In this document: positions 1,370-25,691 of the stretch, piece by piece
Layout: the number at the start of each line of letters is the position of its first letter
Position numbering within the stretch: position 1 is the stretch's first letter
Source of the DNA: Candidatus Hydrogenedens sp.
Lineage (GTDB): Bacteria > Hydrogenedentota > Hydrogenedentia > Hydrogenedentales > CAITNO01
DNA: 64,000 nucleotides
Assembly (NCBI GenBank): GCA_012522755.1
Contig: JAAYJV010000151.1
Coordinates: 1-64,000 of the forward strand
Direction of reading: 5' to 3'
Position numbers and translations under genes: made by a program
Notes under the pieces: generated by a model
The model's database searches: none
What the model was told of the DNA's origin: nothing
Seen by the model: only the letters and a program-made list of their open reading frames with translations

Positions 1370-3313
1370 ATGAACAGCAAGTGCATTTCCTCTGTGTTTG
1401 TGTTTTTGAGTCTCTTATGCGGGATATGGGCTACGCCAGGTCTGGCTCAATCCTTTCCGTCCATGATCACCATCCCTGACGGATATTTTAGAATGGGCAG
1501 ACCCTCCACTGATACGGGATACTCAGACGAGATACCCCGTCATTATGTCACATTGGATCGCTATCAGATCGGTAAATATCCGGTGACAAACGGAGAGTTT
1601 GTCACTGTATTGAACTGGGCCCATACCAATCATCTGCTCAAAAACGAAGACGGTACAGACTATACGGGAGGTACGATCTACGCTTATAATAAAGCTCTTG
1701 CTGCAACACAAAGTGATACAGAAGAGTCGCAGATCATCTTTGATAACAATCAATTCAGTGTCCGAAGCAGGGAAGGTCATGGCGGTCAGCTCTTCTCCAT
1801 GGCTGATCATCCTGTTATCCATGTGTCCTGGTATGGTGCCGTGTGCTACTGCAACTGGCTGAGTGCCATGAAGAATCTTGATCCCTGTTACAATATCTGG
1901 CAATGGAAGTATTTTGAACCGATGCCTAATGGTTACCGTCTGCCGACAGAAGCCGAATGGGAACGAGTTGCGGCCTGGGACAGTGAGGATAAGGAACACC
2001 GGCGCTATGGCATGAATAGTGACAGCATCGATTTCACCAATGCTAATTTTGTCATCGGTGAACTTCCAGCCAATCCTCTGGGTTTGAAGTCAAGGCCCTA
2101 TACCTCCCCTGTGGGCTGGTACAACGGCGTTAATCTGGCACGTTTGGACATGCCCGGTGTGCTGACCGTCAACGCCCGAAGCCCCGTGGGTGCCTATGAC
2201 ATGAGTGGCAATATATGGGAGTGGTGTTACGACTGGTATTCCGCAACATATTACACCAAGCTCTCCAAGGAAAACCCCACAGGCCCCGATTCAGGAGATT
2301 TCCGGGTTCTTCGTGGCGGCTCGTGGCTCAACTACGACGGGGAATGTCGCGCAGCGAGACGGGAGAAAATCCAACCTGAGATGTTCTTCTACAGCGTCGG
2401 GTTCAGGATTGCGCGGACTCCGGACGGATTCGCAGAAGGTGAAGAGCCTGAAGGCGAAGTGGAAGGCGAGGTCGAAGGCGAAATGGAAGGCGAAGTAGAG
2501 GGTGAAGTAGAGGGTGAAGTAGAGGGTGAAGTAGAGGGCGAAGTAGAGGGTGAAGTAGAGGGCGAAGTGGAAGGTGAAGTGGAGGGCGAAGTGGAAGGCG
2601 AAGTGGAAGGCGAAGTGGAAGGTGAAGTAGAGGGCGAGGTTGAAGGCGAAGTGGAAGGCGAAGCAGAAGGCGAAGTGGAAGGTGAAGTAGAGGGCGAAGT
2701 GGAAGGCGAAGTGGAAGGCGAAGTCGAAGGCGAAGTAGAAGGCGAAGTGGAAGGTGAAGTAGAAGGCGAAGTAGAGGGCGAAGTGGAAGGCGAAGCAGAA
2801 GGTGAAGTAGAAGGCGAAGTAGAGGGCGAAGTCGAAGGCGAAGCAGAAGGTGAAGTCGAGGGTGAAGTAGAGGGCGAAGTAGAGGGCGAAGTGGAAGGCG
2901 AAGTGGAGGGTGAAGTAGAGGGCGAGGTTGAAGGCGAAGTGGAAGGCGAAGTGGAAGGCGAAGCAGAAGGCGAAGTGGAGGGCGAAGTAGAGGGCGAAGT
3001 CGAAGGCGAAGCAGAAGGTGAAGTCGAAGGCGAAGTGCAAGGCGAAGTGGAAGGCGAAGTAGAGGGTGAAGTAGAGGGCGAAGTGGAGGGCGAAGACGCT
3101 GAAGGCGAAGCTGCTCCATTAAAACATCCCGCTGACATAAATGGGGATTGGAGAATTACCGCCAACGAAGCGATAGAATATCTTGAAAAATGGCAAGACG
3201 GCGATGTTGAAATGGCCATTGCTATTCGTGCTGTCTACATCATGAAACGTGGCGAAACCTATCATTACATACCGGGATCGGATTCGCCCTTGTGCTGGGA
3301 GCCCGATAACTGA
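1370..3313 (+). CDS. Exported SUMF1-domain protein with giant EGEV repeat and dockerin-like tail
   Basis: A 647-aa protein with a signal peptide of about 26 residues (hydrophobic core [12 protein letters not shown], then LAQS). Residues about 30-350 are a formylglycine-generating-enzyme/SUMF1 fold, shown by [22 protein letters not shown] and RVLRGGSW. True FGE has a CxxxxC pair just after GGS; here the segment is [15 protein letters not shown] with one Cys, so sulfatase activation is unlikely and a binding or structural role fits better. Residues about 355-580 repeat the tetrapeptide Glu-Gly-Glu-Val more than 50 times, with Ala, Met or Gln variants. The C-terminus has a calcium-loop-like [12 protein letters not shown], resembling a dockerin. 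AAGGA stands 7 nt before the ATG. Proteins with this architecture are common in Hydrogenedentes- and Lentisphaerota-type genomes. Function unknown. Confidence 0.85.
2431..3108 (+). repeat. 12-bp coding minisatellite (about 56 units)
   Basis: Tandem units of GAAGGCGAAGTG type, each coding for E-G-E-V. Substitutions are mostly at third positions (gaa/gag, ggc/ggt, gta/gtg/gtc), with occasional Val to Ala, Met or Gln. Because the unit is a multiple of three, copy-number change keeps the frame. It also leaves long open frames on the opposite strand, which are artefacts. Confidence 0.95.
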
Positions 3314-4592
3314 GGAGAGATTTTTTACCACAAAGGGCACGGATACAACGCCCCTTGGATGCACAGATGCACACTGATAAACACTGATGACCCGAGGGCG
3401 ACTTCCACGCCTGCGTCATCTCTGCGAAGGCTGGGATCTTGCGAATTTTCAAGTCCTCATGTCGCATTAAGATTCCTGCTTTCGCAGGAATGACGGAGGC
3501 GTGGGTATGTCTTGAGGCAAATAAGAGATTTGAAGGGTTAAGTGGTTTCTGGGGAGTCGGTCGGATCGGACGGATGTTGGAGGGGCTCGGCTGGGGTCAG
3601 GGCATTATCAGAAACCAGTGGACAGAATGGACCTTTGAAGACGATAGATCTTTTTTATGCCGCATCACTGGTGTCCAAATTAAGGGCACCATCGAATCCA
3701 CACAGTTGAATTCATTGGTATTTTGGGCAGGTTTTGTCTTTATTTTTCCGGTTCCCAGGATCAGGCTAACTGATCGTTGCATTTGTCTGTCCAAATTACG
3801 AAGGCCCATGTAAGACCGTTCTACAGCCACACAATGCTATAAAGACAAGCTTTTTCGGGTACTCAGCACATAGAAACAGGTGTCAACACATGGAACGAGC
3901 CTGTCCAAGAAAAGCTCATTTGGACAAGGATGAAGAATTTTTATAGTTTGCCTTTTCTTTTCTTCCCTTCGTGTTTCTTAGTGTGACTTCGTGGAAGAAA
4001 AAATAATTCAACACTTGCGCTTTCGCCTTGCTGCTTAAACTGTCCAAGGCTTTCAGTTCCACAATGACCTATCATAACAGATCAATTTTTCTTCCACGAA
4101 GTTATACGAAGTCACACTAAAGGAAAGACGATGCAAGTATAAAGGCATGAAGCCTGTGCAAGTCATTTGTTGAATTCATTGGTATTTTGGGCAGGTTTTG
4201 TCTTTATTTTTCCGGTTCCCAGGATCAGGCTAACTGATCGTTGCATTTGTCTGTCCAAGAAAAGCTAATTTGGACAAGGATGATGCCGCATTGTATTTTT
4301 CCGTGTGTTCAGTGAATGACCTGGTTTAAAAATGGGTGCAGGCGCACTTCGCTGTACATGACCCGTTCAAAAAACAAAAAGAAATACTATGTATCCGCCC
4401 CTTTCTGATACTATATAGCTTTCAGAAGCGAACAGTCTCTGTGAGTCCTGTACAGACCGTCATTCTTCTCTCTTATAAACTATGATCAGCCTCTGTGTCT
4501 CTGTTTTTTCGCTTCTCCAGACAAGGTTGTCTTGCTGTTTTCAGGAAGAGATCCTCACACGGCAACTGTCTTAATCATCAGGATCAAATATC
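3314..4592. other. Repeat-filled spacer between the SUMF1 gene and thiG
   Basis: No gene is supported. 3508-3600 resembles 523-600 (a 'ggtcggatcgga' stretch). 3666-4282 is the inverted-repeat element described separately. From about 4283 to 4592 I see no repeat. I also looked for a TPP riboswitch before thiG and did not find its conserved core. Confidence 0.6.
3666..4282 (+). mobile_element. 617-bp inverted-repeat element with 9-bp target duplication
   Basis: The left end CACTGGTGTCCAAATTA (3666-3682) and the inverted right end TAATTTGGACAAGGATG (4266-4282) match the ends of the 153-bp element at 12626-12778. ATGCCGCAT flanks both sides exactly (3657-3665 and 4283-4291). The interior contains a partial second copy of the 3' half (4169-4282), an extra right-end copy near 3901-3932, and an inverted pair around 3977-4005 and 4087-4122 (cttcgtggaag/cttccacgaag). 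It therefore looks internally rearranged or nested. No transposase frame is present. Confidence 0.7.
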
Positions 4593-5390
4593 ATGAATTC
4601 TTCTTTGGTTGACGATACACTGGTCATAGCCGGTCGTCGCTTCAATTCCCGACTCATGATCGGTACGGGAAAATTTCCTTCCGCTGCAGCATTGCGTGCA
4701 GCCATTGAATCCAGCGGTGCCGAGATCATCACCGTCGCTTTGCGGCGTGTGGACCTCGAGAGCGATGAACAGCAAAGCATTCTTTCGGCCATCGACCCTG
4801 AAAAGCAGCTGATTTTACCCAATACCAGCGGTGCTCAGACAGCTGAGGAAGTGCTCAAACTTGCGCGTCTTTCCCGTGCAGGAGGTCTGGAGCCGTGGAT
4901 CAAGCTTGAACTGACTCCGGAGCCCCGTTATCTGCTTCCGGATCCCATGGAAACGCTTCGTGCGGCGGAGCAGCTTGTGAAAGAAGGCTTTATCGTGCTG
5001 CCTTATATCCAGGCGGATCCCGTTCTGGCGAAGCGTCTGGAAGAGGTGGGCACGGCAACGGTCATGCCTCTGGGTGCGCCCATCGGCAGCAACCGGGGTC
5101 TGCAGACAAAGGAAATGCTGCGGATCATCATTGATCAGGCTACCGTTCCCGTTGTTGTGGATGCGGGGCTCGGTGCTCCCTCCCACGCGTCGGAAGCCAT
5201 GGAACTGGGAGCCGATGCCGTACTTGTCAATACGGCACTCTCCGATGCCCGCGATCATGGCGCCATGGCGAAAGCCTTTGCTCTGGCGACGGAAGCCGGT
5301 CGTCTCGCTTTTCTTGCGGGACTCGGTCCTCAACGCAGTACAGCCTCCGCCTCCTCCCCTCTCACCGGCTTTCTGTTCAATCAGGAATAA
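4593..5390 (+). CDS. thiG: Thiazole synthase ThiG
   Basis: A 265-aa cytoplasmic TIM-barrel enzyme that forms the thiazole phosphate of thiamine from 1-deoxyxylulose 5-phosphate, dehydroglycine and the ThiS thiocarboxylate. Family motifs are [11 protein letters not shown] near the start, [13 protein letters not shown], the Schiff-base lysine Lys104 in [18 protein letters not shown] and [16 protein letters not shown]. Full length. thiH follows after 9 bp. thiS and thiF are not in the window, so sulfur delivery must be encoded elsewhere. Confidence 0.97.
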
Positions 5391-5399
5391 AACAGTATC

Positions 5400-6542
5400 A
5401 TGACTTTTGAAACATTATTGAATCAATGGCCCGAAGAAAGGATAGAAGAAGTTCAGCGCTGCTGTACGGAAAGCCGTGTCGCCGCAGCTCTTGCCAATGA
5501 ACACCGCAGTCCCGACGATCTTCTGGCACTTCTTTCACCGGCTGCGGTGCCCTGGCTTGAAGCTCTGGCTGTGGAAGCCAATAAAGAAACGCGCCGTCAA
5601 TTCGGTCGTACCATCGGTCTTTATGCACCCATTTACCTGTCCAATGTCTGCGGTTCCAATTGCGTATATTGCAGTTTTTCCACGGTGAATGCGGGAAAAG
5701 AAGAGCGGACCACATTGGATGACCATCAGATAGAAAAAGAATGTCAGGCCCTGTCTGAACAGGGCTTTGACAATGTGCTCCTTCTGACAGGGGACGCTGT
5801 GCATGCGGCACCGCCGGAGTATATCGCCCGCGCTTGCCGTATAGCCCGGAAGTGGTTTTCCTCCGTGGCCGTGGAAGTTTATTCCATGACGGAAGAGGAA
5901 TACGGGCTCCTTTGCGATCACGGTCTGGACGGGGTCACGCTGTACCAGGAGAGCTTTCATCGCCCCACCTATATGGAGATGCACCGGAGCGGTCGAAAAC
6001 GGGATTATGCTTCCCGTCTGGAGGCCCTGAAACGGGCTGGCCGTGCGGGGGTCCGCCGTCTGGGTACCGGTATTCTTCTGGGCCTGTACAAATGGCGCAT
6101 TGATGCCTTCTGGCTGGGCCTTTACGGGCGCTGGCTGCAGCAGCAGTGCTGGCACAGTCTTGTGTCTGTTTCCTTTCCGCGATTGAGGCACACTCCCAGC
6201 TCCTTTGTGCCTCCCTATCCTGTTTCAGATGTGGATATGGTGCAGATGATGCTGGCACTGCGTCTTTTTCTTCCGGAAGCGCCTTTCTCTCTCAGTACCC
6301 GTGAAAATGCCTCTTTCAGGGACAGGCTCCTTCCTCTGGGCATCACTTCCATGAGTGCCGGTTCCAGTACCCGTCCCGGTGGCTATGCTTTCCCGGACAG
6401 TTCCAGTCTGGAACAGTTTCAAATAGAAGATTCGCGGAGTGCTGCGGAGATCAAAAGAGTCATCGAAAAAGCCGGTTATGATCCTGTTTGGAAAGATTAT
6501 GACCATGCTTTTGTGTCTGATCTCACTGAAGATCTTCACTGA
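5400..6542 (+). CDS. thiH: 2-iminoacetate synthase ThiH
   Basis: A 380-aa radical-SAM enzyme that cleaves tyrosine to 2-iminoacetate (dehydroglycine), the nitrogen donor for ThiG; its use implies the anaerobic-type route rather than glycine oxidase. The [4Fe-4S] cysteines are Cys84, Cys88 and Cys91 in NVCGSNCVYCSF. ThiH/BATS features follow (GTGILLGLYKWRID, SFPRLRHTP, STRENASFRDRLLPLG, SAGSSTRPGGY). Full length, immediately behind thiG, so very probably one transcript. Confidence 0.96.
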   Translation: MTFETLLNQWPEERIEEVQRCCTESRVAAALANEHRSPDDLLALLSPAAVPWLEALAVEANKETRRQFGRTIGLYAPIYLSNVCGSNCVYCSFSTVNAGKEERTTLDDHQIEKECQALSEQGFDNVLLLTGDAVHAAPPEYIARACRIARKWFSSVAVEVYSMTEEEYGLLCDHGLDGVTLYQESFHRPTYMEMHRSGRKRDYASRLEALKRAGRAGVRRLGTGILLGLYKWRIDAFWLGLYGRWLQQQCWHSLVSVSFPRLRHTPSSFVPPYPVSDVDMVQMMLALRLFLPEAPFSLSTRENASFRDRLLPLGITSMSAGSSTRPGGYAFPDSSSLEQFQIEDSRSAAEIKRVIEKAGYDPVWKDYDHAFVSDLTEDLH

Positions 6543-6610
6543 TTTGACTTTTCAACGGCTAAACTCATACGCTAACGGTAAACTGCTCAAATATCAGGGA
6601 GAAACCGGTC

Positions 6611-7381
6611 GTGCGATCACAGGAATTACGCCTCTCATATCAGGAAGCTATCCAGCTCATCCGTGTTGGCCATTACGAGGCGGCCCATCGTTTGCTCAAA
6701 GCCATTGATAACGAACGGCCCAATGTGAAGAATGTTCTTTATCCGCTGGCTGTCTGCTGCGAAGCTCTGGGCCTGGTGGATGAAGGGCTGGATTATTGCG
6801 ACACCCTGATCAAAGACTATGATCACGCAAAAGCCAAAAAGATCAAAGAACGGCTCTTCACAAGTCTGCCTGTTCCTGAGGCCGTTGAACTGCCGGCCAG
6901 GAAAGAAAAAGCCGAGCCTCCCTCTTCAGAGCCCGCTGAAGTGATAGATCCTGAAATTGCAACAGTTCCTGAAGAGACGGGTGATGATGAACAGAAAGAT
7001 TCTCCGCCCTTTTCTCAGATTGAGGAAGTCGAGAACCCTCTCATAAGCGACGATGACCCTGAAGAAAAAGAAAAGGAGCCTGCAACGGATTTCAGGGAAG
7101 ACTCAGAACTGGAGGAAATGGAACCTTCAGACGAAACAGAAACAGAAACAGAAACAGAAGCGGAGAAGGATACGGATACGGATACGGAAAGGGAAACGGA
7201 TACGGAAAGGGATGAAAAAGTCAAAGCTCCTTTCTGGCTCATTCTTGTTCTTGCTTTTCTGGCTGCAGCTGTTTCCGCCGGTCTGATTCATTATTTTATA
7301 CTTGGTACAGAACAGCCTCTTCTGTTTTTGAAAGAGTTGTATACAAAAATTGTGGAGACCCTTCACTCTTTGCACTCCTGA
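6611..7381 (+). CDS. TPR-like protein with acidic linker and C-terminal membrane anchor
   Basis: 256 aa from a GTG start; no upstream ATG fits the frame. Residues about 5-80 are helical and TPR-like (YQEAIQLIRVGHYEAAHRLLKAI, YPLAVCCEALGLVDEGLDYCDTLI). A long Glu/Pro/Asp-rich linker follows, ending in Thr-Glu and Thr-Asp dipeptide repeats encoded by 6-bp tandem repeats (about 7132-7215). One transmembrane helix lies near residues 206-232 (PFWLILVLAFLAAAVSAGLIHY), with a short tail after it. It was probably inserted with the TPR part in the cytoplasm. Function unknown. It sits 68 bp after thiH and 20 bp before the sigma factor gene, so it may be co-transcribed with either. Confidence 0.8.
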   Translation: MRSQELRLSYQEAIQLIRVGHYEAAHRLLKAIDNERPNVKNVLYPLAVCCEALGLVDEGLDYCDTLIKDYDHAKAKKIKERLFTSLPVPEAVELPARKEKAEPPSSEPAEVIDPEIATVPEETGDDEQKDSPPFSQIEEVENPLISDDDPEEKEKEPATDFREDSELEEMEPSDETETETETEAEKDTDTDTERETDTERDEKVKAPFWLILVLAFLAAAVSAGLIHYFILGTEQPLLFLKELYTKIVETLHSLHS

Positions 7382-7401
7382 GGGGTGCGTTATGTGACAC
7401 T

Positions 7402-8235
7402 ATGCTGGAACCCAACGATAAAAGCCTTAATCTCTATCTGATGGAAATCTCGAAGATACCGCTGCTGTCGGCTTCGGAGGAGATCCGTCTGGCGAAGCTT
7501 GCACAGAAAGGCGATCAATCCGCCCGACGGATATTGATTGTTTCCAATCTCCGGCTCGTGGTTTCCGTTGCGAAAAAATATCTCTATTTCGGGCTTCCTC
7601 TTCTGGACCTCATTGAAGAAGGCAATCTGGGTCTCATGCGTGCAGCCGACCGTTTTGATCCCAAACGTGGCTGCAAATTCTCCACCTATGCCACGTGGTG
7701 GATCCGTCAGGCCGTGACCCGGGCCTTATCCAATCAGGGCCGCACAATCCGTATTCCTGTGTATATCACCGACAATCTGGCGAAATACAAACGGATGGTC
7801 GATGATTTTTATAAAGTCCACGGCCGTCAGCCCAGCAGCGAGGATATGGCTGAAGTGATGGGCATGAAGCTCAAGGAAATAAAAAAGCTTGAGCTGTTTG
7901 AAGAGACGATTTCTCCCATGGAAAATATACAATCCCTGGACAGTGCCATAGGCCGAGAAGGGGGTATTTTCCAGGAACCTGTAGCTGACAACCCCACTCT
8001 GACTCAGTTTTTCCGCAATGAGGAGATGGACGCACTCATGAGACAGCTTACGGAACGGGAGTCGGCCATTATCCGTTATCGCTATGGCCTGTATGATGGC
8101 AAAGCCCATACCCTGGAAGAAACGGGAAAGCATTTCGCCTTGACCCGGGAGCGTATCCGCCAGATTGAACGGGAGGCCATGCGCCGAATGCGCAACTATA
8201 TGAGCAGGCACGGCGACGATTTTACCAAAGGCTGA
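7402..8235 (+). CDS. RNA polymerase sigma factor, sigma-70 group 2 type
   Basis: A 277-aa sigma-70 protein. Region 1.2/2.1 is LNLYLMEISKIPLLSASEEIRLA; region 2 has NLRLVVSVAKKY, DLIEEGNLGLMRAADRFDP and FSTYATWWIRQAVTRAL; region 3 is KLKEIKKLELF; region 4 has LTERESAIIRYRYGL and the helix-turn-helix LTRERIRQIEREAMRRMR. It lacks region 1.1 and the long non-conserved region of a primary sigma factor, so it is more likely an RpoS/SigB-like alternative than RpoD. No anti-sigma gene is adjacent. Confidence 0.9.
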   Translation: MLEPNDKSLNLYLMEISKIPLLSASEEIRLAKLAQKGDQSARRILIVSNLRLVVSVAKKYLYFGLPLLDLIEEGNLGLMRAADRFDPKRGCKFSTYATWWIRQAVTRALSNQGRTIRIPVYITDNLAKYKRMVDDFYKVHGRQPSSEDMAEVMGMKLKEIKKLELFEETISPMENIQSLDSAIGREGGIFQEPVADNPTLTQFFRNEEMDALMRQLTERESAIIRYRYGLYDGKAHTLEETGKHFALTRERIRQIEREAMRRMRNYMSRHGDDFTKG

Positions 8236-8391
8236 CAGCTCCTCAAGTCATCTTTCTGATGCCTCCCTCTTTTCGCAGCGACTCTCAATCAAGCTCTCCA
8301 TCCGGATGCACCGGTGAAATGAAAGAACATCCGCTTCTGTTTCATATGAACAAGACAGATGCTGTCACCGAGATGTGATCAGGAGAAAGAG

Positions 8392-9000
8392 ATGGCTCCG
8401 GATAAAGATATTCAAAGAGCGTTGGAGAAACTTGTTGAGCAGATACACAAGTGCAGGGTCTGCGCGGCCCATCTGCCTCTGGGGCCCCGGCCTGTGGTAC
8501 ATCTGCATTCTCAGGCGCGCATTCTCATTATCGGCCAGGCACCGGGTCGGCGTGTTCATGAAAGCGGCATCTCCTGGGATGATCCCAGTGGCGACCGCTT
8601 ACGCCAGTGGATGGGCATTGACCGCAGTGTCTTTTATGACGACCATAATATAGCGATCATGGCTTCCGGCTTCTGCTATCCTGGCAAACATGAACGAGGC
8701 GGCGACAAGCCGCCCCGTCCCGAATGCACGCCCCTGTGGCATCCTCAAATCCGGCCTTTGCTGCCTCATATTCAGCTGACCCTTCTTGTGGGTGCCTATG
8801 CGCAAAAAAACTATTTGCAGAAAGCAGCCAAATCAACATTGACCGAGACGGTTCGCCACTGGCGGGACTATCTCCCTGAATTTCTTCCTCTCCCCCATCC
8901 CTCACCCAGAAATGGCGCCTGGTTTCAGAGACATCCCTGGTTTGAAGAAGAAACAGTCCCTTTCCTTCGTGAGCGCATTCACGCTCTTCTGGAATTGTGA
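8392..9000 (+). CDS. Uracil-DNA glycosylase superfamily protein
   Basis: 202 aa. I chose the ATG at 8392 because AGGAG lies 6 nt before it; an in-frame ATG at 8359 has no such site. Glycosylase-fold motifs are ILIIGQAPGRRVHESGISW near the start and HPSPRNGAWFQRHPWF near the end. A CxxC (KCRVCAAH) and two further cysteines (GFCYPGK, RPECTPLW) match the layout of the iron-sulfur UDG group. It belongs to the subfamily usually annotated only as 'uracil-DNA glycosylase family', so the lesion it removes is uncertain. Confidence 0.85.
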   Translation: MAPDKDIQRALEKLVEQIHKCRVCAAHLPLGPRPVVHLHSQARILIIGQAPGRRVHESGISWDDPSGDRLRQWMGIDRSVFYDDHNIAIMASGFCYPGKHERGGDKPPRPECTPLWHPQIRPLLPHIQLTLLVGAYAQKNYLQKAAKSTLTETVRHWRDYLPEFLPLPHPSPRNGAWFQRHPWFEEETVPFLRERIHALLEL

Positions 9001-9018
9001 TGCAGGTGGTCAGAACAC

Positions 9019-10287
9019 TCAATCGTTTTCCACATAGGAAATCTGTGCCATTTCTTCTTCCGTGAAACGGCTGTTTGCGATGGGTCCGGGTGCCCAGCAC
9101 TGTTCCAGCGGAGGCGGCGCGATGTCTTCAACAGGGATGCAGAAAATTTCGTTACCCTCTTCATCACTGAGAATTTTTCCGCCCTTGTACACGACGGCTT
9201 GTCGTACGAGTTGATCACAGACATCGAGAAGTCCATCGAAAGTATAGGGCGTGTGACTGAATTTAACATCCCGTTTCAAGGCACTGGTGAATTTTTCCGG
9301 TACATTCTCAATTCCGAGGGTGGTGAACAAAATACCGGCTGCACTGGAGGGATTGCAGTCTGAATCATGTCCGCAGCGTGTTGCCACTTCAATAGTTTTA
9401 TCAGGATCGCCTTCTCCGTAGAGCAGTCCCATGACAATAAAGGATCCGTTGATCTTGGCATCAATATTGAACTTCAGCAGATCATCGTTACATGAGAATT
9501 TCCGGTAGTCCGGATTCAGGTGATATTTTTCATTGATTTTTTCCCAACTTGCAATCCAGTCATCAGGGAACTCACTGTGCCAGCGGATCACGTCCGTGAT
9601 GCATTCATAATACTGACTTCCCTCGGGAATGGCCTTCAATCCGGCCTGAATAATTTTCTCAACTGAGCTTTCGAAGAAAGCTTCGCTGTACATGGCTCCG
9701 ACAAAGAGCCCGCCATAAAGCCCATCTCCGTAGTTCATGAGCCGCCCGAAGGTTTCTCCCAGCTGAAGAACAATAGAAGGCATTCCCGGGGCAATGATAC
9801 CACTGTAGTCGGCTTCGATCTGATAGTCAATATCATCGGCATGACTGTTGAATTGCGGGTGACCTGAATCAGGCGGGGCGATGCCTTTACGCAGGTTCTC
9901 ACGACCGAATTTGTTGGCATGCCAGAGTTTGTAGCCGCTGTTGGCGAATTCGATACCGGCTTGCCGTGCTGTGGTATCAATCCCGTATTTTTCAAGAGTA
10001 TGCAGAAAAGTCATTTCCACATAGAGGTCATCTTCTTCAAACTGGTTGATGGTCTCCGGGGTCCATTTCGGATAGTCCTCTTCAGGTACGATAACCCCGT
10101 TAAATTTGAATTCAGTAGGCACACCCCAGCCGACTCCGGCCATCTGACCGATCCAGGCTGCGGCCATGCGGGACTTGTATTCCTTCGCATCCAGCAGTCT
10201 GTAACTGACATTCTGTGCATTGTCCGCAGCCGGCACAGCCTGGCTCAACATGAGGAGTGCAACGGCAAAAGTAAAGAATTTGGACAT
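9019..10287 (-). CDS. Exported ADP-ribosylglycohydrolase-fold protein
   Basis: 422 aa with a signal peptide (FFTFAVALLMLSQAVPAAD). The ADP-ribosylglycohydrolase signature is spread along the chain: WIGQMAGVGWGVPTEF, EDDLYVEMTFLHTL (the Asp-rich metal site), HADDIDYQIEADYSGIIAPG and GHDSDCNPSSAAGIL. AAGGAG precedes the ATG. Exported members of this fold are frequent near glycoside hydrolases in Planctomycetes-like genomes and probably act on sugars rather than on ADP-ribosylated proteins; that is inference. It is divergently transcribed from the GH127 gene across a 179-bp gap, which suggests shared regulation. Confidence 0.85.
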   Translation of the reverse strand: MSKFFTFAVALLMLSQAVPAADNAQNVSYRLLDAKEYKSRMAAAWIGQMAGVGWGVPTEFKFNGVIVPEEDYPKWTPETINQFEEDDLYVEMTFLHTLEKYGIDTTARQAGIEFANSGYKLWHANKFGRENLRKGIAPPDSGHPQFNSHADDIDYQIEADYSGIIAPGMPSIVLQLGETFGRLMNYGDGLYGGLFVGAMYSEAFFESSVEKIIQAGLKAIPEGSQYYECITDVIRWHSEFPDDWIASWEKINEKYHLNPDYRKFSCNDDLLKFNIDAKINGSFIVMGLLYGEGDPDKTIEVATRCGHDSDCNPSSAAGILFTTLGIENVPEKFTSALKRDVKFSHTPYTFDGLLDVCDQLVRQAVVYKGGKILSDEEGNEIFCIPVEDIAPPPLEQCWAPGPIANSRFTEEEMAQISYVEND

Positions 10288-10466
10288 GAATCTTTTTCTC
10301 CTTGATGAATCCTTCAGCCTTTATTGTTTGAATAGAGAAGGGCTAAACTTTACAATACAATTCGAAACCTGTGACCGCCTCTTAGTATAACAAATTCAAA
10401 GCGTTCAAAGGACTTGCGGACACTTGCCGGCCTGTCCTCCATCTACAACCCGTCAGGAGACCAGAA

Positions 10467-12386
10467 ATGAACACTGCCCTTCTCCTCTCCCTCGTCTTTC
10501 TTTTTCATCAGTCAGCACAAGAGCCGCTGGCCCCTCTCTCCCTGCAGCCGCTGCCCACAGGAACAGTTCTGGCCGAAGGATGGTTGGAACAACAGTTGCG
10601 CATTCAAAGTGATGGCCTTTCCGGGCATCTGGATAAATTCTGGCCGGACATTCAAGACAGTGGATGGATAGGCGGTGATGCGGAAGGCTGGGAGCGGGCT
10701 CCCTACTGGCTGGATGGACTTGTGCCTCTGGCCTGGACACTTTCCGATATCACCCTCCAGAAGACTGTTCATTATTGGATGGACTATATTCTGGAACATC
10801 AGCACGAAGACGGCTGGCTGGGTCCCCGGAAAAGTGCGGGTTATCAGGAACTGGACACCTGGCCCCAATTCGTGATTCTGAAAGCGCTGCGCCAGTATCA
10901 TGAAGTGACAGGTGACAGACGCGTTCTTCCGGCCATGCTCAAGAATGTGCGCTGCATAGACCGTGTTCTGGCTGAGAAGCCGCTCTTCGACTGGGGAAAA
11001 TACCGTTGGATGGATCTGGTTGTCACGCTCCATTGGCTCTATGAGCAAAGCGGTGATATGGACTTGCTCGCCATTGCAGAGCGGGCCGCTGAACAGGGTT
11101 TTTCCTGGCGCAAACATTTTGAAGACTTCCGCTTCCCCGATAAAATGAAAGCAGACAAGTGTATTTTCGATACCCATGTGGTGAACAACGCCATGGCCGT
11201 AAAAGCATCAGCCGTATGGTACAGACAATCTCAGGATCCCGGTGATCTGGCTGCTGTGCAAGGCTGTCTGGATACGCTGGATCTGTATCACGGCCAGGCA
11301 ACAGGTATTTTCACGGGAGACGAACACTATGCGGGAAAAAGCCCCTCCCAGGGCACGGAATTGTGCGCTGTAGTGGAGTATTTATTTTCTCTGGAAACCC
11401 TTCTTTCCCATCTGGGTCGCCCTGAAGACGGAGACCGCTTGGAGCGCATCGCTTACAATGCTCTGCCCGGCACCTTTTCTCCGGACATGTGGGCCCACCA
11501 ATATGTACAGCAGGCCAATCAGGTCGTCTGCAGAGTATCTGAAGACCGTGTCTACACAAACAACGGCCCGGATTCCAACCTCTTCGGACTTGAACCGAAT
11601 TATGGCTGCTGCACCTCGAACATGCATCAGGGTTGGCCCAAATTTGTGAGCCACCTCTGGATGATCACCCCCGCTGAAGGAGATCAAAAAGAAGGGCTGG
11701 CCGCTGTTGCCTATGGGCCTTGCAGTTTGAAAACCCGAGTCGGCGGGACAGCGGTACATATCCGGGTAGATACGGCCTACCCCGTTGACGATACCATCCG
11801 CATCGTACTGGAAGTGACAGGCGATTTTCCTTTGACCCTCCGTGTTCCCGCCTGGGCGGAAGGAGCCACTGTGCAAGTGGATATGGAAGCTCCTGAAGCA
11901 ATGGAAGCAGGAGGCTTTTTTGTACTGAAGCGTTCCTGGAAAGGCTCAGCAAATATCGTCTTGCAGTTTCCCATGAAAGCGGTGAGCGAAAGACGTTTCA
12001 ATAACAGCGCCACTATTTCCCGGGGTCCACTGGTCTACTCGCTGGCTATAGGAACGGAATGGCGTTATCTTCGAGGCGATGCTCCCCACAATGATTTTGA
12101 ACTCTACCCGACAACGCCCTGGAACTATGCTCTTCATGCGGATTTCATCGATACACTGCGCTTTGAAACGGGCTCGATCAAAGGGAATCCTTTTGATCCG
12201 GCCACTCCCGCTGTTCAGGCCTGGACAGAAGGGCGCCTTCTTCCCGGGTGGGAACTGGACAGGAACGCCGCAGCCCCGCCACCAGAGAGCCCGGTGGAGT
12301 CTTCAGAGGAAAGTACCCAATTGCGGCTTATTCCCTATGGGGCCGCAAAACTGCGTATCACCGAATTCCCCGTATTGAAGGAATAG
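10467..12386 (+). CDS. Exported GH127-family (DUF1680) glycoside hydrolase, beta-L-arabinofuranosidase-like
   Basis: 639 aa with an N-terminal signal peptide (TALLLSLVFLFHQSAQ). The alpha/alpha-barrel family is clear from WLDGLVPLAWTL, NNAMAVKASAVWYR and YGCCTSNMHQGWPKF. The GH127 active-site set is present: Glu298 and Cys300 (TELCAVVEY) and the Cys381-Cys382 pair (YGCCTS), which in characterised members form the Glu/Cys3 zinc site with a cysteine nucleophile. C-terminal beta domains follow. The substrate is probably a plant or bacterial arabinoside, but GH127 relatives vary. AGGAG lies 6-7 nt before the ATG. Confidence 0.88.
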   Translation: MNTALLLSLVFLFHQSAQEPLAPLSLQPLPTGTVLAEGWLEQQLRIQSDGLSGHLDKFWPDIQDSGWIGGDAEGWERAPYWLDGLVPLAWTLSDITLQKTVHYWMDYILEHQHEDGWLGPRKSAGYQELDTWPQFVILKALRQYHEVTGDRRVLPAMLKNVRCIDRVLAEKPLFDWGKYRWMDLVVTLHWLYEQSGDMDLLAIAERAAEQGFSWRKHFEDFRFPDKMKADKCIFDTHVVNNAMAVKASAVWYRQSQDPGDLAAVQGCLDTLDLYHGQATGIFTGDEHYAGKSPSQGTELCAVVEYLFSLETLLSHLGRPEDGDRLERIAYNALPGTFSPDMWAHQYVQQANQVVCRVSEDRVYTNNGPDSNLFGLEPNYGCCTSNMHQGWPKFVSHLWMITPAEGDQKEGLAAVAYGPCSLKTRVGGTAVHIRVDTAYPVDDTIRIVLEVTGDFPLTLRVPAWAEGATVQVDMEAPEAMEAGGFFVLKRSWKGSANIVLQFPMKAVSERRFNNSATISRGPLVYSLAIGTEWRYLRGDAPHNDFELYPTTPWNYALHADFIDTLRFETGSIKGNPFDPATPAVQAWTEGRLLPGWELDRNAAAPPPESPVESSEESTQLRLIPYGAAKLRITEFPVLKE

Positions 12387-12551
12387 TCACCACAGTGCTG
12401 CATAGCCGTAATCAATTGCTGCTTTTCTTTTAATCAGGTCGCACAGGGAAAAACACATCTTAACCGAAGAGATGACACTGATACGACATCCCTGGGAACC
12501 ACAGATGAACACTGATTAACACTGATAAATTAAAGACCTTGAATCGCGCAG

Positions 12552-12578
12552 CCTGGGAACGCCAATTTCCACATTGGC
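12552..12578 (+). repeat. Solo GCCAAT-hairpin repeat
   Basis: Identical over 27 nt to the copies at 327, 876 and 30263. The following bases (acgcatgatgacttca) also match those after the 327 copy. Confidence 0.85.
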
Positions 12579-12625
12579 AGACAACGCATGATGACTTCAT
12601 TTCCACAAAAGTTATCACCTGAAGA

Positions 12626-12778
12626 CATCCTTGTCCAAATTAGCTTTTCTTGGACAGGCCAATGCAACGATCAGTCAACCTGATCCCGGGAACCGGGAAA
12701 ATGAAGACAAAACCTGGCCAAAATACCAATGAATTTAACTGTGTTGATTCGATGGTGACCTTAATTTGGACACCAGTG
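12626..12778 (-). mobile_element. 153-bp MITE with 17-bp terminal repeats and perfect 9-bp target duplication
   Basis: The left end CATCCTTGTCCAAATTA (12626-12642) and right end TAATTTGGACACCAGTG (12762-12778) are inverted repeats matching at 13 of 17 positions, including an 11-bp perfect core. ACCTGAAGA occurs immediately outside both ends (12617-12625 and 12779-12787), as expected of a 9-bp target duplication. The interior is non-coding and matches parts of 3666-3795 and 4169-4282 in the opposite orientation. It must be mobilised in trans, since no transposase is present. Confidence 0.85.
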
Positions 12779-12870
12779 ACCTGAAGATAAATCTCTCTAC
12801 TTTTTTGTTGACAGCAGTTCTCATGCCGCATCACAACCCACGGTATTTTCAAGGACTGGTCCCGCTGTAT

Positions 12871-12897
12871 GCCAATGGGGACATTGGCGCTCCCACG
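12871..12897 (-). repeat. Variant GCCAAT-hairpin repeat
   Basis: GCCAATGGGGACATTGGC followed by 'gctcccacg'. It is the same variant as in the 137-bp tandem repeat at 46182 and 46319. Confidence 0.75.
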
Positions 12898-13108
12898 ATA
12901 CGACCTTCACCGCCGGAAAGTTTTCGAAAGCATGAATATGTTTGAAGGCGTTAAGGAAAATGGGCACGGCATGGCGTTCCCAGGAGTGACTCCCAAGGTT
13001 TTTCAGGATTGCCTGGGCGTTATCAGTTCGTGGTCAACACAATCGGCGATCACTGGCGGTTATACACAGCCGGAAAGCATTCACAACGGTTGATATTGCT
13101 CTGAAATA

Positions 13109-14221
13109 CTATTGTCTGTTTTTCAGGCCTTGAACCAACGCCAGGAGAAAATCACGGTTGTCAGCTGTCATATAACGCATTTCGCCGCCCATGCGGTTGA
13201 AGCTCTTGTTATAGCGCAGATAGTAGTCGGGATTGTCCATGGGCGGTTCACCCTGAGACCAGTCCCAATGGGATTCCTGGAGATCAACAATCACCATGTA
13301 ATGGTTATCGATGTGCTTGCCTTCCTGAATATGCAGGTTCTGGGACATGGACAGGCTCTTTTCAAAAATCATGGGCGACATGACAGCTGAACCTATACTC
13401 ATGTAGACGCCCCCATCGAGATTGTGAACCTGCTGTGCGAATGCGAGGAAATCACGCTGGGCGGAACGACCAATGGCTGCGCCGTGGTTCATGGGATGGG
13501 TATAAATGATGTCGTGGCCGATCATGGGATGGCTGGTGAAAGGAATACCCAGTCTGTAAGCTGCGGACTGAACGCCATATTTCTTGAAGGGATGACGAAC
13601 AGCCATGAACCCCGGTTTAAGATCAAAATGGCGTATACGATCCAGAAAGTCAGCGGCCGCAGCAGCCTGAACCGGATTATTTACGGCTTCCTGGCGGATC
13701 TCCTCGATCAGTGCTTCCTGACTGGGGATTTCAACACCGTCATCTTCCACAAAGGCGCCAACGGCTTCTCCATAACCCAGACCCTTCCAGGCTCCGGCGA
13801 CAATGGCGAGATTCAGATACATGCCCGTTTCCTGCCAGATGCCGAACTCGCCCCGGTCAACATTGGTACGCACATCTTCACTGCTGTGCCCTTGGAAGGC
13901 GAATTCCCAGTCATGAATGATACCGGCACCATTGGTTGCCAGATGGGTCACCCACCCTTCTTCCATGAGATGGATAAAGACGGGAGCCAGTCCATTTTTG
14001 ATGGCATGGGCCCCGAAGGTCAACATACGTGATTTGTTGTTCTTCCGAGCCTGAACAAGTCTTTCAACCAGCTCGTCCATAACCTTCAACCCCTGCGCCG
14101 AGAGAGGATGTGAAAGAGGCGCATCCACAGGGACATGATCCCGTTCTATGAACACCTTGTCTTCCCGCTCAGACAGATTTTTTATAAAGAGTTTGTCACG
14201 ATCAAATTGTGGGAATGGCAT
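13109..14221 (-). CDS. Deoxyhypusine-synthase-like protein
   Basis: 370 aa, cytoplasmic. The segment WVTHLATNGAGIIHDWEFAFQGHSSEDV resembles the NAD-binding region of bacterial deoxyhypusine-synthase-like and homospermidine-synthase-like proteins, and the Rossmann-type layout (LTFGAHAIKNGLAP, PMIGHDIIYTHPMNHG, GGVYMSIGSAVMSPMIFEKSL) fits that superfamily. I cannot locate the catalytic lysine motif of true deoxyhypusine synthase, and bacteria lack eIF5A, so the substrate is unknown. AGGAG precedes the ATG by 8 nt. It lies 163 bp downstream of alaS on the same strand. Confidence 0.55.
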   Translation of the reverse strand: MPFPQFDRDKLFIKNLSEREDKVFIERDHVPVDAPLSHPLSAQGLKVMDELVERLVQARKNNKSRMLTFGAHAIKNGLAPVFIHLMEEGWVTHLATNGAGIIHDWEFAFQGHSSEDVRTNVDRGEFGIWQETGMYLNLAIVAGAWKGLGYGEAVGAFVEDDGVEIPSQEALIEEIRQEAVNNPVQAAAAADFLDRIRHFDLKPGFMAVRHPFKKYGVQSAAYRLGIPFTSHPMIGHDIIYTHPMNHGAAIGRSAQRDFLAFAQQVHNLDGGVYMSIGSAVMSPMIFEKSLSMSQNLHIQEGKHIDNHYMVIVDLQESHWDWSQGEPPMDNPDYYLRYNKSFNRMGGEMRYMTADNRDFLLALVQGLKNRQ

Positions 14222-22999: not shown

Positions 23000-24430
23000 A
23001 TGCAATACGAAGCTGTCATCGGCATGGAAGTCCATGTTGAAATAAACTGCAAATCAAAAGTCTTTTGTGGTTGTCCCACAGTATTTGACGCTCCGCCAAA
23101 CAGCCAGACTTGTCCCCTTTGTCTGGGAATGCCCGGCGGATTGCCCGTTCTCAACCGATCCATGGTCGATAAATCCATGGCTGTAGGTTTGGCTCTCAAT
23201 TGTCGAATAGCCCGGGAAACACGGATGGACAGAAAAAACTATTTCTATCCGGATCTGGCCAAGAACTATCAGATCAGTCAGGACGACCAGCCTTTATGTT
23301 ACGACGGTTATCTCGATGTGGATGTTGATGGTGAGATGAAGCGCATCGGTATTACCCGGGCCCATATGGAAGAGGATACAGCCCGAAACAGCCATACCGT
23401 GGGTGGTGGCCAAAGCGGTGTTGATTTCAACCGTTCCGGAGTCGCCCTGTTGGAAATTGTCACAGAACCCGATATCCGCAGTGCTCAGGAAGCCTTTGCC
23501 TATCTGACGGCTCTTAAACAACTGCTTCAATATCTGGATGTGAGCGACTGCAATATGGAAGAGGGCTCTCTCCGTGCAGAGGCCAACATCAGTGTTCGCC
23601 CTGTGGGTTCAGACAAGTTCGGCACAAAGACAGAAGTGAAGAACGTCGCCTCTTTCTCGGGTGTTCAGAAAGCCATAGAATTTGAAATCGCCCGCCAGAT
23701 AAAAGTCCTGAACGATGGAGGCACGGTCTTACAGGAAACCAGGGGCTGGGATGCGGATAAAGGTGTCACCCTTTCGCAGCGACTCAAAGAATCGGCCCAG
23801 GAATACCGTTATTTTCCGGAACCGGACGTCCCCCCCATTGTGGTGGATGACGCCTGGATTGATGCCATTCAAAAGAGTCTTCCGGAACTCCCTACAGCAC
23901 GTAAAGAACGCTTTCAGAAGGAGTATGAGCTGAGTGCCTATGATGCCCATGTCATGACCCTCAGCCGTGCCATGGCCGATTATTATGAAGCCATTGTGAA
24001 GGCCGGTGCTGACCCGAAAAAAGCAGCCAACTGGCTCATGGTGGAACTGCTGGCTCTCCTGGCCGATGCCAAAGTTGAAATATCAGACAGTCCGGTCAGC
24101 CCTGAAAACCTCGCTGCATTGATCGGGCTCATCGATACCAATGTGATCAACGGAAAAATCGCCAAGGAAGTACTGGTAGAGATGTTCAAGACCGGTGCCG
24201 CCCCTGCAGCGATTGTTGAAGAAAAAGGACTGGGCCAGATCAGCGATACCAGTGCTCTTGAAGAGGCTGTCCAGGCTGTGATCGAAGCCAATCCGCAACA
24301 GGTGGCCGATTACCGTGCAGGCAAGGACAAAATCTTCGGTTATTTTGTCGGACAGGTCATGAAAGCCACCCGCGGCAAAGGAAATCCGCAGTTGGTCAAT
24401 GAAATTCTCCGACGTGAACTTGACTCTTGA
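23000..24430 (+). CDS. gatB: Glutamyl-tRNA(Gln) amidotransferase subunit B
   Basis: 476 aa. The kinase/transamidase cradle starts YEAVIGMEVHVEINCKSKVFC with zinc-type cysteines (FCGCP, CPLCLG), followed by FNRSGVALLEIVTEPD and ASFSGVQKAIEFEI. The C-terminal helical and YqeY-like tail (GKIAKEVLVEMF, ANPQQVADYRAGKDKIFGYFVGQVMKATRGKGNP) binds the tRNA elbow. It phosphorylates the tRNA-bound glutamate and amidates it with ammonia channelled from GatA. Confidence 0.97.
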   Translation: MQYEAVIGMEVHVEINCKSKVFCGCPTVFDAPPNSQTCPLCLGMPGGLPVLNRSMVDKSMAVGLALNCRIARETRMDRKNYFYPDLAKNYQISQDDQPLCYDGYLDVDVDGEMKRIGITRAHMEEDTARNSHTVGGGQSGVDFNRSGVALLEIVTEPDIRSAQEAFAYLTALKQLLQYLDVSDCNMEEGSLRAEANISVRPVGSDKFGTKTEVKNVASFSGVQKAIEFEIARQIKVLNDGGTVLQETRGWDADKGVTLSQRLKESAQEYRYFPEPDVPPIVVDDAWIDAIQKSLPELPTARKERFQKEYELSAYDAHVMTLSRAMADYYEAIVKAGADPKKAANWLMVELLALLADAKVEISDSPVSPENLAALIGLIDTNVINGKIAKEVLVEMFKTGAAPAAIVEEKGLGQISDTSALEEAVQAVIEANPQQVADYRAGKDKIFGYFVGQVMKATRGKGNPQLVNEILRRELDS

Positions 24431-24462
24431 CGCATCTGTCAATAGAATACATGATCATACCC

Positions 24463-24834
24463 ATGAAAAAATCAGAAGATAAACAACTGAAAATCAAAGT
24501 ACAGCAACTTGCCGAGGGACTTTTGTCCAAGAAAGCACTGGATATCAAGGCCCATCTCGTTTCCGGGGCAACTGTGATTGCTGATGCTTTTATTCTTTGT
24601 ACAGCCTCCAGCGCCATCCACCTGAAAGCGGTTGCAAATGGTGCCCGGGAATGGATGCGAGATGCCGGTTATGAAATCCTTCGTGTGGAAGGGGACCACC
24701 AGCATGGCTGGCTGATTCTGGACTATGGCGATGTCATTGTACATGTGTTCAGAGCGGAGGCGCGCGCCTTCTACGATCTGGACCGGCTGTGGGCGGATAC
24801 TCCGGAAATCCCCCTGGACCTGGAAAACAACTGA
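24463..24834 (+). CDS. rsfS: Ribosomal silencing factor RsfS
   Basis: 123 aa from the ATG at 24463; in-frame starts at 24427 (TTG, overlapping gatB) and 24451 (ATG) are possible, and no strong ribosome-binding site separates them. The core DUF143 fold is clear: DIKAHLVSGATVIADAFILCTASSAIHLKAVANGAREWM, then GDHQHGWLILDYGDVIVHVF and YDLDRLWADTPEI. RsfS binds L14 on the 50S subunit and blocks joining under starvation. It follows the gat genes and precedes the kinase by 17 bp, so the five genes probably form one operon. Confidence 0.94.
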   Translation: MKKSEDKQLKIKVQQLAEGLLSKKALDIKAHLVSGATVIADAFILCTASSAIHLKAVANGAREWMRDAGYEILRVEGDHQHGWLILDYGDVIVHVFRAEARAFYDLDRLWADTPEIPLDLENN

Positions 24835-24851
24835 TAAGGAGAGGCTGTCAT

Positions 24852-25691
24852 ATGGACCGTCATTTTACCCCGGACATTCAGCAGCTCTACCATTTCAAGC
24901 TGCAACGTATACTGGGTGAAGGCGGCACAGGCCGGGTATATCTGGGCGTCGACATCAGAAAAGGGACGCCTGTTGCGGTAAAACTCTTCCGGGAAAACTT
25001 CTTCCGCAATCGTCTTCATGTTCGCGATCTTGCCAAGAGTGTTACAAAATTCAAACGCTTCAAACACAGCAATGTTGTCCAGATTTATGATTTTTATGAC
25101 GGTGAGGAAGGCCGTTGCATGGTCATGGAATACGTGGACGGACCGAGTTTGAAATGGTATATTCTGAACCGTCCCTACAACCTGGCTGAGCGATTGAATG
25201 TGGCAATTCAGATTTGCAACGGCATGCAGTATCTTCATGACAAGGGATGCATCCACCACGATTTCAAACCGGCCAACGTGCTCTTCACCCGTACAGGTGT
25301 CGTCAAAATTGCTGACTTCTCCCTCTATGGCAGCAGTTTTCTTTTGGAGCTCATCGACAAGAATGTGGGCGAACAGATCACGCCCATGTTCGTCGCTCCG
25401 GAATTCATACGCAAAGAAAAGGTGACGGCCCAGAGTGATATCTATTCCATGGGCATTTCCTTTTATATGCTCTTTACCGGCAAGGTTCCCTATCCTGTGG
25501 ATAATATCCGCAAACTCTATCATTGCCATCTGGCTGTCATGCCCGATCATCCTTCACTTGTTTCGCCGGAATGCCCCAATGCCATTGGTGATATCATCAT
25601 GAAAATGCTTGCAAAACGGCCGGAAGCACGTTTTGCGGATTGTGATGAATTGGCTGTTGCTCTGGCGCAATCGCAGCGCAGCCGCATTTAA
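24852..25691 (+). CDS. Soluble Ser/Thr protein kinase (Hanks type)
   Basis: 279 aa, a bare kinase domain with no transmembrane or extracellular part. The Gly loop is LGEGGTGRVYLG, the ATP lysine Lys44 (VAVKLF), and the catalytic loop HHDFKPAN with Asp137. The metal-binding loop reads Asp155-Phe-Ser rather than DFG. The APE motif is VAPEF, then SDIYSMGISFYML. All key acidic and lysine residues remain, so activity is likely despite the DFS change. I placed the start at 24852 (AAGGAG upstream). The position after gat-rsfS hints at translation-linked signalling, which is inference. Confidence 0.9.
   Translation: MDRHFTPDIQQLYHFKLQRILGEGGTGRVYLGVDIRKGTPVAVKLFRENFFRNRLHVRDLAKSVTKFKRFKHSNVVQIYDFYDGEEGRCMVMEYVDGPSLKWYILNRPYNLAERLNVAIQICNGMQYLHDKGCIHHDFKPANVLFTRTGVVKIADFSLYGSSFLLELIDKNVGEQITPMFVAPEFIRKEKVTAQSDIYSMGISFYMLFTGKVPYPVDNIRKLYHCHLAVMPDHPSLVSPECPNAIGDIIMKMLAKRPEARFADCDELAVALAQSQRSRI

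Follow-up and report, generated by a model that had tools for sequence, protein, structure and literature searches.

A MITE family with 9-bp target duplications, compound variants and a probable IS4-type partner in Candidatus Hydrogenedentota

Bacterial MITEs derived from insertion sequences (IS) are short, non-coding elements with terminal inverted repeats and a target site duplication (TSD) of fixed length, which occur in many copies and are presumed to be mobilized in trans (PMC10969869). IS4-family elements produce duplications of approximately 10 bp and carry a YREK motif, and those of the subgroup IS4Sa have ends of the form CA------T with duplications of 8–10 bp (PMC2266710). Two further systems combine mobile ends with other DNA: the IS4-family mobile insertion cassettes of IS231 (MIC231), cited in PMC2266710, and the Tn3-family TIMEs and TIME-COMPs, in which two miniature elements move the intervening DNA as a composite unit (PMC4133298, PMC13367494). 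The family described here is a well-documented further example of the known bacterial kind, with a compound, cargo-carrying variant; it shares all the listed MITE properties and differs from the elements of PMC10969869 in that its 153-bp form appears to have arisen secondarily, by deletion from a 267-bp form, and in that compound copies hold gene debris. We found no paper joining the name of the host phylum with MITEs.

The window, i.e., the whole 64,000-nucleotide stretch that was analyzed, corresponds to positions 1–64000 of contig C123 of the host genome (G000), a Candidatus Hydrogenedentota assembly of 4.0 Mb in 199 contigs with 95% completeness. It contains a 153-bp element that is a MITE: it is small, non-coding and lacks a transposase, and it has terminal inverted repeats, a target duplication of fixed length and dispersed copies. 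The sequence-only reading had described such an element with a perfect 9-bp duplication, and both its coordinates and the duplicated ACCTGAAGA were confirmed exactly (Table 1). The inverted 17-bp ends were also recovered, but they are imperfect, CATCCTTGTCCAAATTA and CACTGGTGTCCAAATTA being identical at 13 of 17 positions, 11 of them contiguous (TGTCCAAATTA). As had been proposed, the element is short and without coding capacity, and no ORF of at least 90 aa lies within it. The window has a single instance of its paired-end pattern, which none of 100 shuffles reproduced. The insertion occupies a convergent intergenic gap between the ORFs at 10467–12386 (+) and 13109–14221 (−), and no promoter or terminator consensus sites were found around it. 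Short motifs in its vicinity (window positions 12480–12600 and 12841–12900), e.g., CCACAGATGAACACTGATTAACACTGAT and GCCAATTTCCACATTGGC, resemble further dispersed repeats.

Table 1. Coordinates of the MITE-related features in the window
Feature	Position	Strand	Details
Short-form MITE	12626..12778	+	153 bp; no ORF
Target duplication of the MITE, left copy	12617..12625	.	9 bp; ACCTGAAGA
Target duplication of the MITE, right copy	12779..12787	.	9 bp; ACCTGAAGA
Left terminal inverted repeat	12626..12642	+	CATCCTTGTCCAAATTA
Right terminal inverted repeat	12762..12778	-	CACTGGTGTCCAAATTA as read on the - strand
Internal repeat of the 153-bp element	12650..12659	+	TTGGACAGGC
Compound element of the same family	3666..4282	-	617 bp; flanked as a whole by a single TSD
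Target duplication of the compound element	3657..3665	.	ATGCCGCAT on +, ATGCGGCAT on -
Target duplication of the compound element, other copy	4283..4291	.	
Compound, right-hand unit (267-bp long form)	3666..3932	-	
Compound, linker (decayed GxxExxY/PDDEXK_3 gene remnant)	3933..4168	-	with flanking 'CACGAAGTCACACTAAG'-type repeats
Compound, left-hand unit (MITE 1-114)	4169..4282	-	right end lost

A search of the host genome with the 153-bp query returned 50 BLAST matches, and many more ends were found by pattern search. Seventeen matches span all or nearly all of the 153 bp at 89–100% identity, in addition to one old copy at 84%, and the family has at least 35 members in the host, with 35 outer left ends that each lie at a distinct site; a chance origin of the element is thereby excluded. 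Three forms can be distinguished: the short form of 153 bp, a long form of 267 bp, and compound elements in which one or two partial units are arranged around a linker. The long form consists of MITE positions 1–34, a 104-bp spacer and MITE positions 25–153, so that TTGGACAGGC, which occurs once in the short form, stands on either side of the spacer. The 267-bp form is also present in three other genomes: the sister species ADurb.Bin170 (G001), of the same genus as the host; RA.bin58 (G013), from another genus; and, in a more divergent version, MJ-time_bin-1056 (G062), from another family. Because it is the long form that occurs in other genomes, the most plausible reading of the 153-bp form is that of a shortened derivative, most likely the outcome of a deletion event between both copies of TTGGACAGGC. 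The element had been called intact; it is genuine, yet it would be a derivative and not the ancestral form. Among public genome contigs, the exact 27-base MITE pattern was found in Candidatus Hydrogenedentota only; viral contigs held no copies of this pattern, and plasmids gave no match to the MITE.

Every outer left flank in the host genome (35) was compared with every outer right flank (34). At 9 bp, 20 pairs of flanks matched exactly, of which 18 are non-redundant; a single match occurred at 7 bp and none at 8, 10, 11 or 12 bp, while shuffled flanks gave a mean of 0.06 matches and a maximum of 2; seven more 9-bp pairs carry one mismatch, and several left and right ends are still unpaired. 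Flanking duplications, on which the sequence-only reading had staked its claim of transposition, thus accompany many other copies, and the lack of one at the 84% identical copy C123:127957 is expected of a decayed copy. Ten exact pairs link different contigs, which shows that the host assembly is broken at MITE elements. Because the MITEs fragment the assembly at predictable points, their TSDs are usable for joining contigs; the junctions predicted from shared TSDs are C43–C59, C65–C109, C70–C32, C193–C76, C11–C116, C197–C132, C198–C130, C164–C55, C28–C71 and C77–C115. The gene order of the sister species backs two one-mismatch pairs across contigs, C96/C149 and C100/C69, and at C96/C149 this species has the empty site of the insertion, with a single copy of the target. 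For the copy at 12626, no empty site was found, the matching flank being absent from the 800 kb of the sister genome that was sampled.

The region 3666–4282 had been cited as related sequence indicating a family. The family is real, and the region is not a mere fragment but a compound element that moved as a single unit and has one TSD of its own (ATGCGGCAT on the element's strand). In its right-hand unit, MITE 1–34 corresponds to 3899–3932, the spacer to 3795–3898 and MITE 25–153 to 3666–3794. The linker matches the linkers of many other copies, and its part at 3933–4085 is 92% identical to the linker of an element on contig C26. The gene from which these linkers derive survives on contig C196 (L230, about 24009–25118), where a 1.1-kb element with MITE ends and a near-perfect TSD (AGAAGGTGT/AGAAGGTAT, one mismatch) contains an intact 125-aa GxxExxY gene (TIGR04256, PDDEXK_3) and no transposase. 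By comparison with it, the linkers are identified as deleted remnants of the GxxExxY gene and its flanking repeats, and the order of events was presumably capture of the cargo followed by its decay and amplification. MITE-mediated capture and amplification is thus documented for a gene family of unknown function. The C196 element, in which IS ends and a TSD enclose a passenger gene but no transposase, has the organization of a mobile insertion cassette; as in MIC231, the passenger replaces the transposase between IS4-type ends, whereas the IS4 subgroup and the cargo differ and trans-mobilization is here a prediction. In comparison with the TIMEs and TIME-COMPs, which the compound elements also resemble, the ends are IS4-type with a 9-bp TSD, in contrast to Tn3 ends and 5–6 bp, and unlike in TIME-COMPs the cargo is a chromosomal gene fragment. 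Inverted 'CTTCGTGTAACTTCGTGGAAGAA' repeats lie on both sides of the GxxExxY gene on C196, and repeats like them border gene pieces in many places of the genome; therefore the gene together with its repeats may be a mobile unit in its own right.

To find a candidate partner, all 68 genomes of the order were screened for transposases whose N-terminal domain is DUF4372. In three relatives (G013, G016 and G062), an autonomous-type element with the ends of the MITE was read in partial pieces. In G013 and G016, the DUF4372 gene is preceded by CACTCTTGTCCAAATTAGG, after which comes MVKTASLFSQLLEQIPR... (DUF4372); the gene is preceded by CACTCTTGTCCAAATTAAC in G062, a genome in which the MITE and the IS left end are both present. 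The 3′ part of the IS, on G013:C35, codes for the C-terminal DDE_Tnp_1 region, in which the YREK motif is present, and terminates in CACTGCTGTCCAAATTAGG; the motif, Y-2-R-3-E-6-K following the IS4 family definition of PMC2266710, reads YRERWQIELFFKALK and was located in L203/L263. The outer flank of this part, CCCTAAGCA, also borders the left end on C406, which gives a 9-bp duplication (one pair), and a related IS in G023, another relative, has six flank pairs of exactly 9 bp, with no pair of any other length. The DUF4372 and DDE_Tnp_1 parts lie on separate contigs and were read separately, the middle part with the second catalytic D missing; a full-length partner IS with MITE-like ends on one contig was not found. 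In NCBIfam, both protein parts have an IS4 family transposase model as their best match, with scores below the cut-off for the whole protein. The ends of the partner, CACTCTTGT and CACTGCTGT, fit CA------T, and its 9-bp TSD is inside the 8–10 bp stated for IS4Sa. On the grounds of ends, duplication length and motif, rather than a tree, the partner fits the IS4 family, closest to IS4Sa (PMC2266710), from which it differs in being known here from partial transposase sequences only.

Hybrid composites in which a single MITE end is combined with a single end of an IS-derived element were found in G013 (TSD TTCCCAGAA) and G062 (TSD TCCCGAAAA); their position within a single 9-bp duplication is a natural sign that one transposase recognizes both ends. 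Beyond the terminal repeat, similarity between the MITE interior and the IS right end is weak (42 against a shuffle maximum of 37, in G013). Mobilization in trans by a DDE transposase that produces 9-bp duplications, as initially suggested, gains support from this IS4-family IS with the same ends and TSD, and a likely transposase type can hence be named for an orphan MITE family of an uncultured phylum. The transposase had been described as unseen in the window; it can now be typed as a putative DUF4372/DDE IS4-family enzyme of relatives, and its absence extends to the whole host assembly. There, neither a DUF4372 match nor a match to the G013 transposase was found at 95% completeness, and the proposed genome-wide search for a full-length IS with the same ends recovered the ends of the family and, of the IS, relic right ends but no gene. 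The two relics, C37:11486 (score 68) and C170:52348 (score 50), exceed shuffle maxima of 41 and 36, respectively, with scores computed without the terminal repeat, and therefore the IS was probably once present in the host lineage. The partner may have been lost after a burst, be missing from the assembly or have arrived transiently.

Taken together, the observations very probably reflect a MITE with ends CAYYCTTGTCCAAATTAG and CACTGSTGTCCAAATTAAG that originated as a 267-bp form, captured a GxxExxY gene and is recognized in trans by an IS4-family, IS4Sa-like transposase. Judging from sequence comparison, an enzyme with DUF4372 and DDE_Tnp_1 domains would move the MITE by recognizing its ends and joining them to staggered target cuts, which would leave the 9-bp duplications. 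Deletion between the two TTGGACAGGC repeats would convert the 267-bp into the 153-bp form, and two neighboring MITE ends could move the DNA lying between them. In one lineage, a GxxExxY gene would have been picked up in this manner, its decayed remnants then being amplified as compound elements such as 3666–4282. We infer that the partner was either lost from the host lineage or reaches it by transfer.

An improbable but not negligible variant of this reading is a modular, trans-mobilized platform, in which MITE ends repeatedly move adjacent DNA and have captured GxxExxY and spread its pieces through the genome despite the lack of a matching transposase gene in the cell, and in which activity is driven by an incoming IS4-type IS from relatives or mobility is aided by the GxxExxY protein. 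It is less probable still that the MITE is moved by another transposase resident in the host, such as the IS1182-like DDE_Tnp_1 protein on C13 or the protein on C129, which alone in the host genome match PF01609; no MITE terminal repeat lies near either gene (best match, 4 mismatches in 17), and the IS with identical ends and a 9-bp TSD encodes a DUF4372/IS4 transposase. That the family is extinct, all copies being fossils untouched by recent transposase action, seems very unlikely: the host has no partner gene and some copies are old (84–90% identical), but compound copies from six different sites show no difference over 115 bp, three more deviate at one base, and four right halves share an identical stretch of 126 bp. 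Perfect TSDs flank several of these compound copies and right halves, and identical compound copies at different sites represent a recent burst. Least credible of all is another dispersed palindromic repeat resembling a MITE (REP/BIME, an integron attC-like cassette or an RNA-based retroelement), as the imperfect hairpin of the strand folds only mildly better than shuffles (z about −2) because of its terminal repeats, no Rfam family matches window positions 3000–14000, and the likeness of compound elements to cassette arrays is superficial. Both the TSDs and the empty site contradict this reading, REP and attC sites making no fixed 9-bp duplications.

IS66 was considered as a partner and rejected. 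On G023:C5, an IS66-like C-terminus is located 150 bp inward from a MITE-like end, but the ten other copies end in GGTTAC beside unrelated DNA, so IS66 has merely inserted into a MITE-like copy; the 43-aa IS66 fragment had no match in Pfam, NCBIfam or PHROGs. In G023, this IS66-like element is present in at least 11 copies and the assembly is broken at the same point in them, at the terminus GGTTAC (eleven contig ends, L105–L115). The same genome contains a 37-bp minimal element, CACTCCTGTCCAAAACAGCTTTTCCTGGACAGCAGTG (L083, G023:C91:482–518), in which two ends are fused almost without an interior. A second MITE family was observed in G013 and G016 (G013:C1:16541; L205 and L209 on G016:C147 and C160). 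The right ends of this second family and of the IS4-type IS are clearly homologous (scoring 92 against a shuffle maximum of 31 when the terminal repeat is left out), and L205 has the 9-bp TSD GAGAAAGGT. Finally, the ORF at 1370–3313 of the window, inspected by eye, has a formylglycine-enzyme-like N-terminal part followed by a long run of 10-letter protein repeats, i.e., a coding minisatellite.
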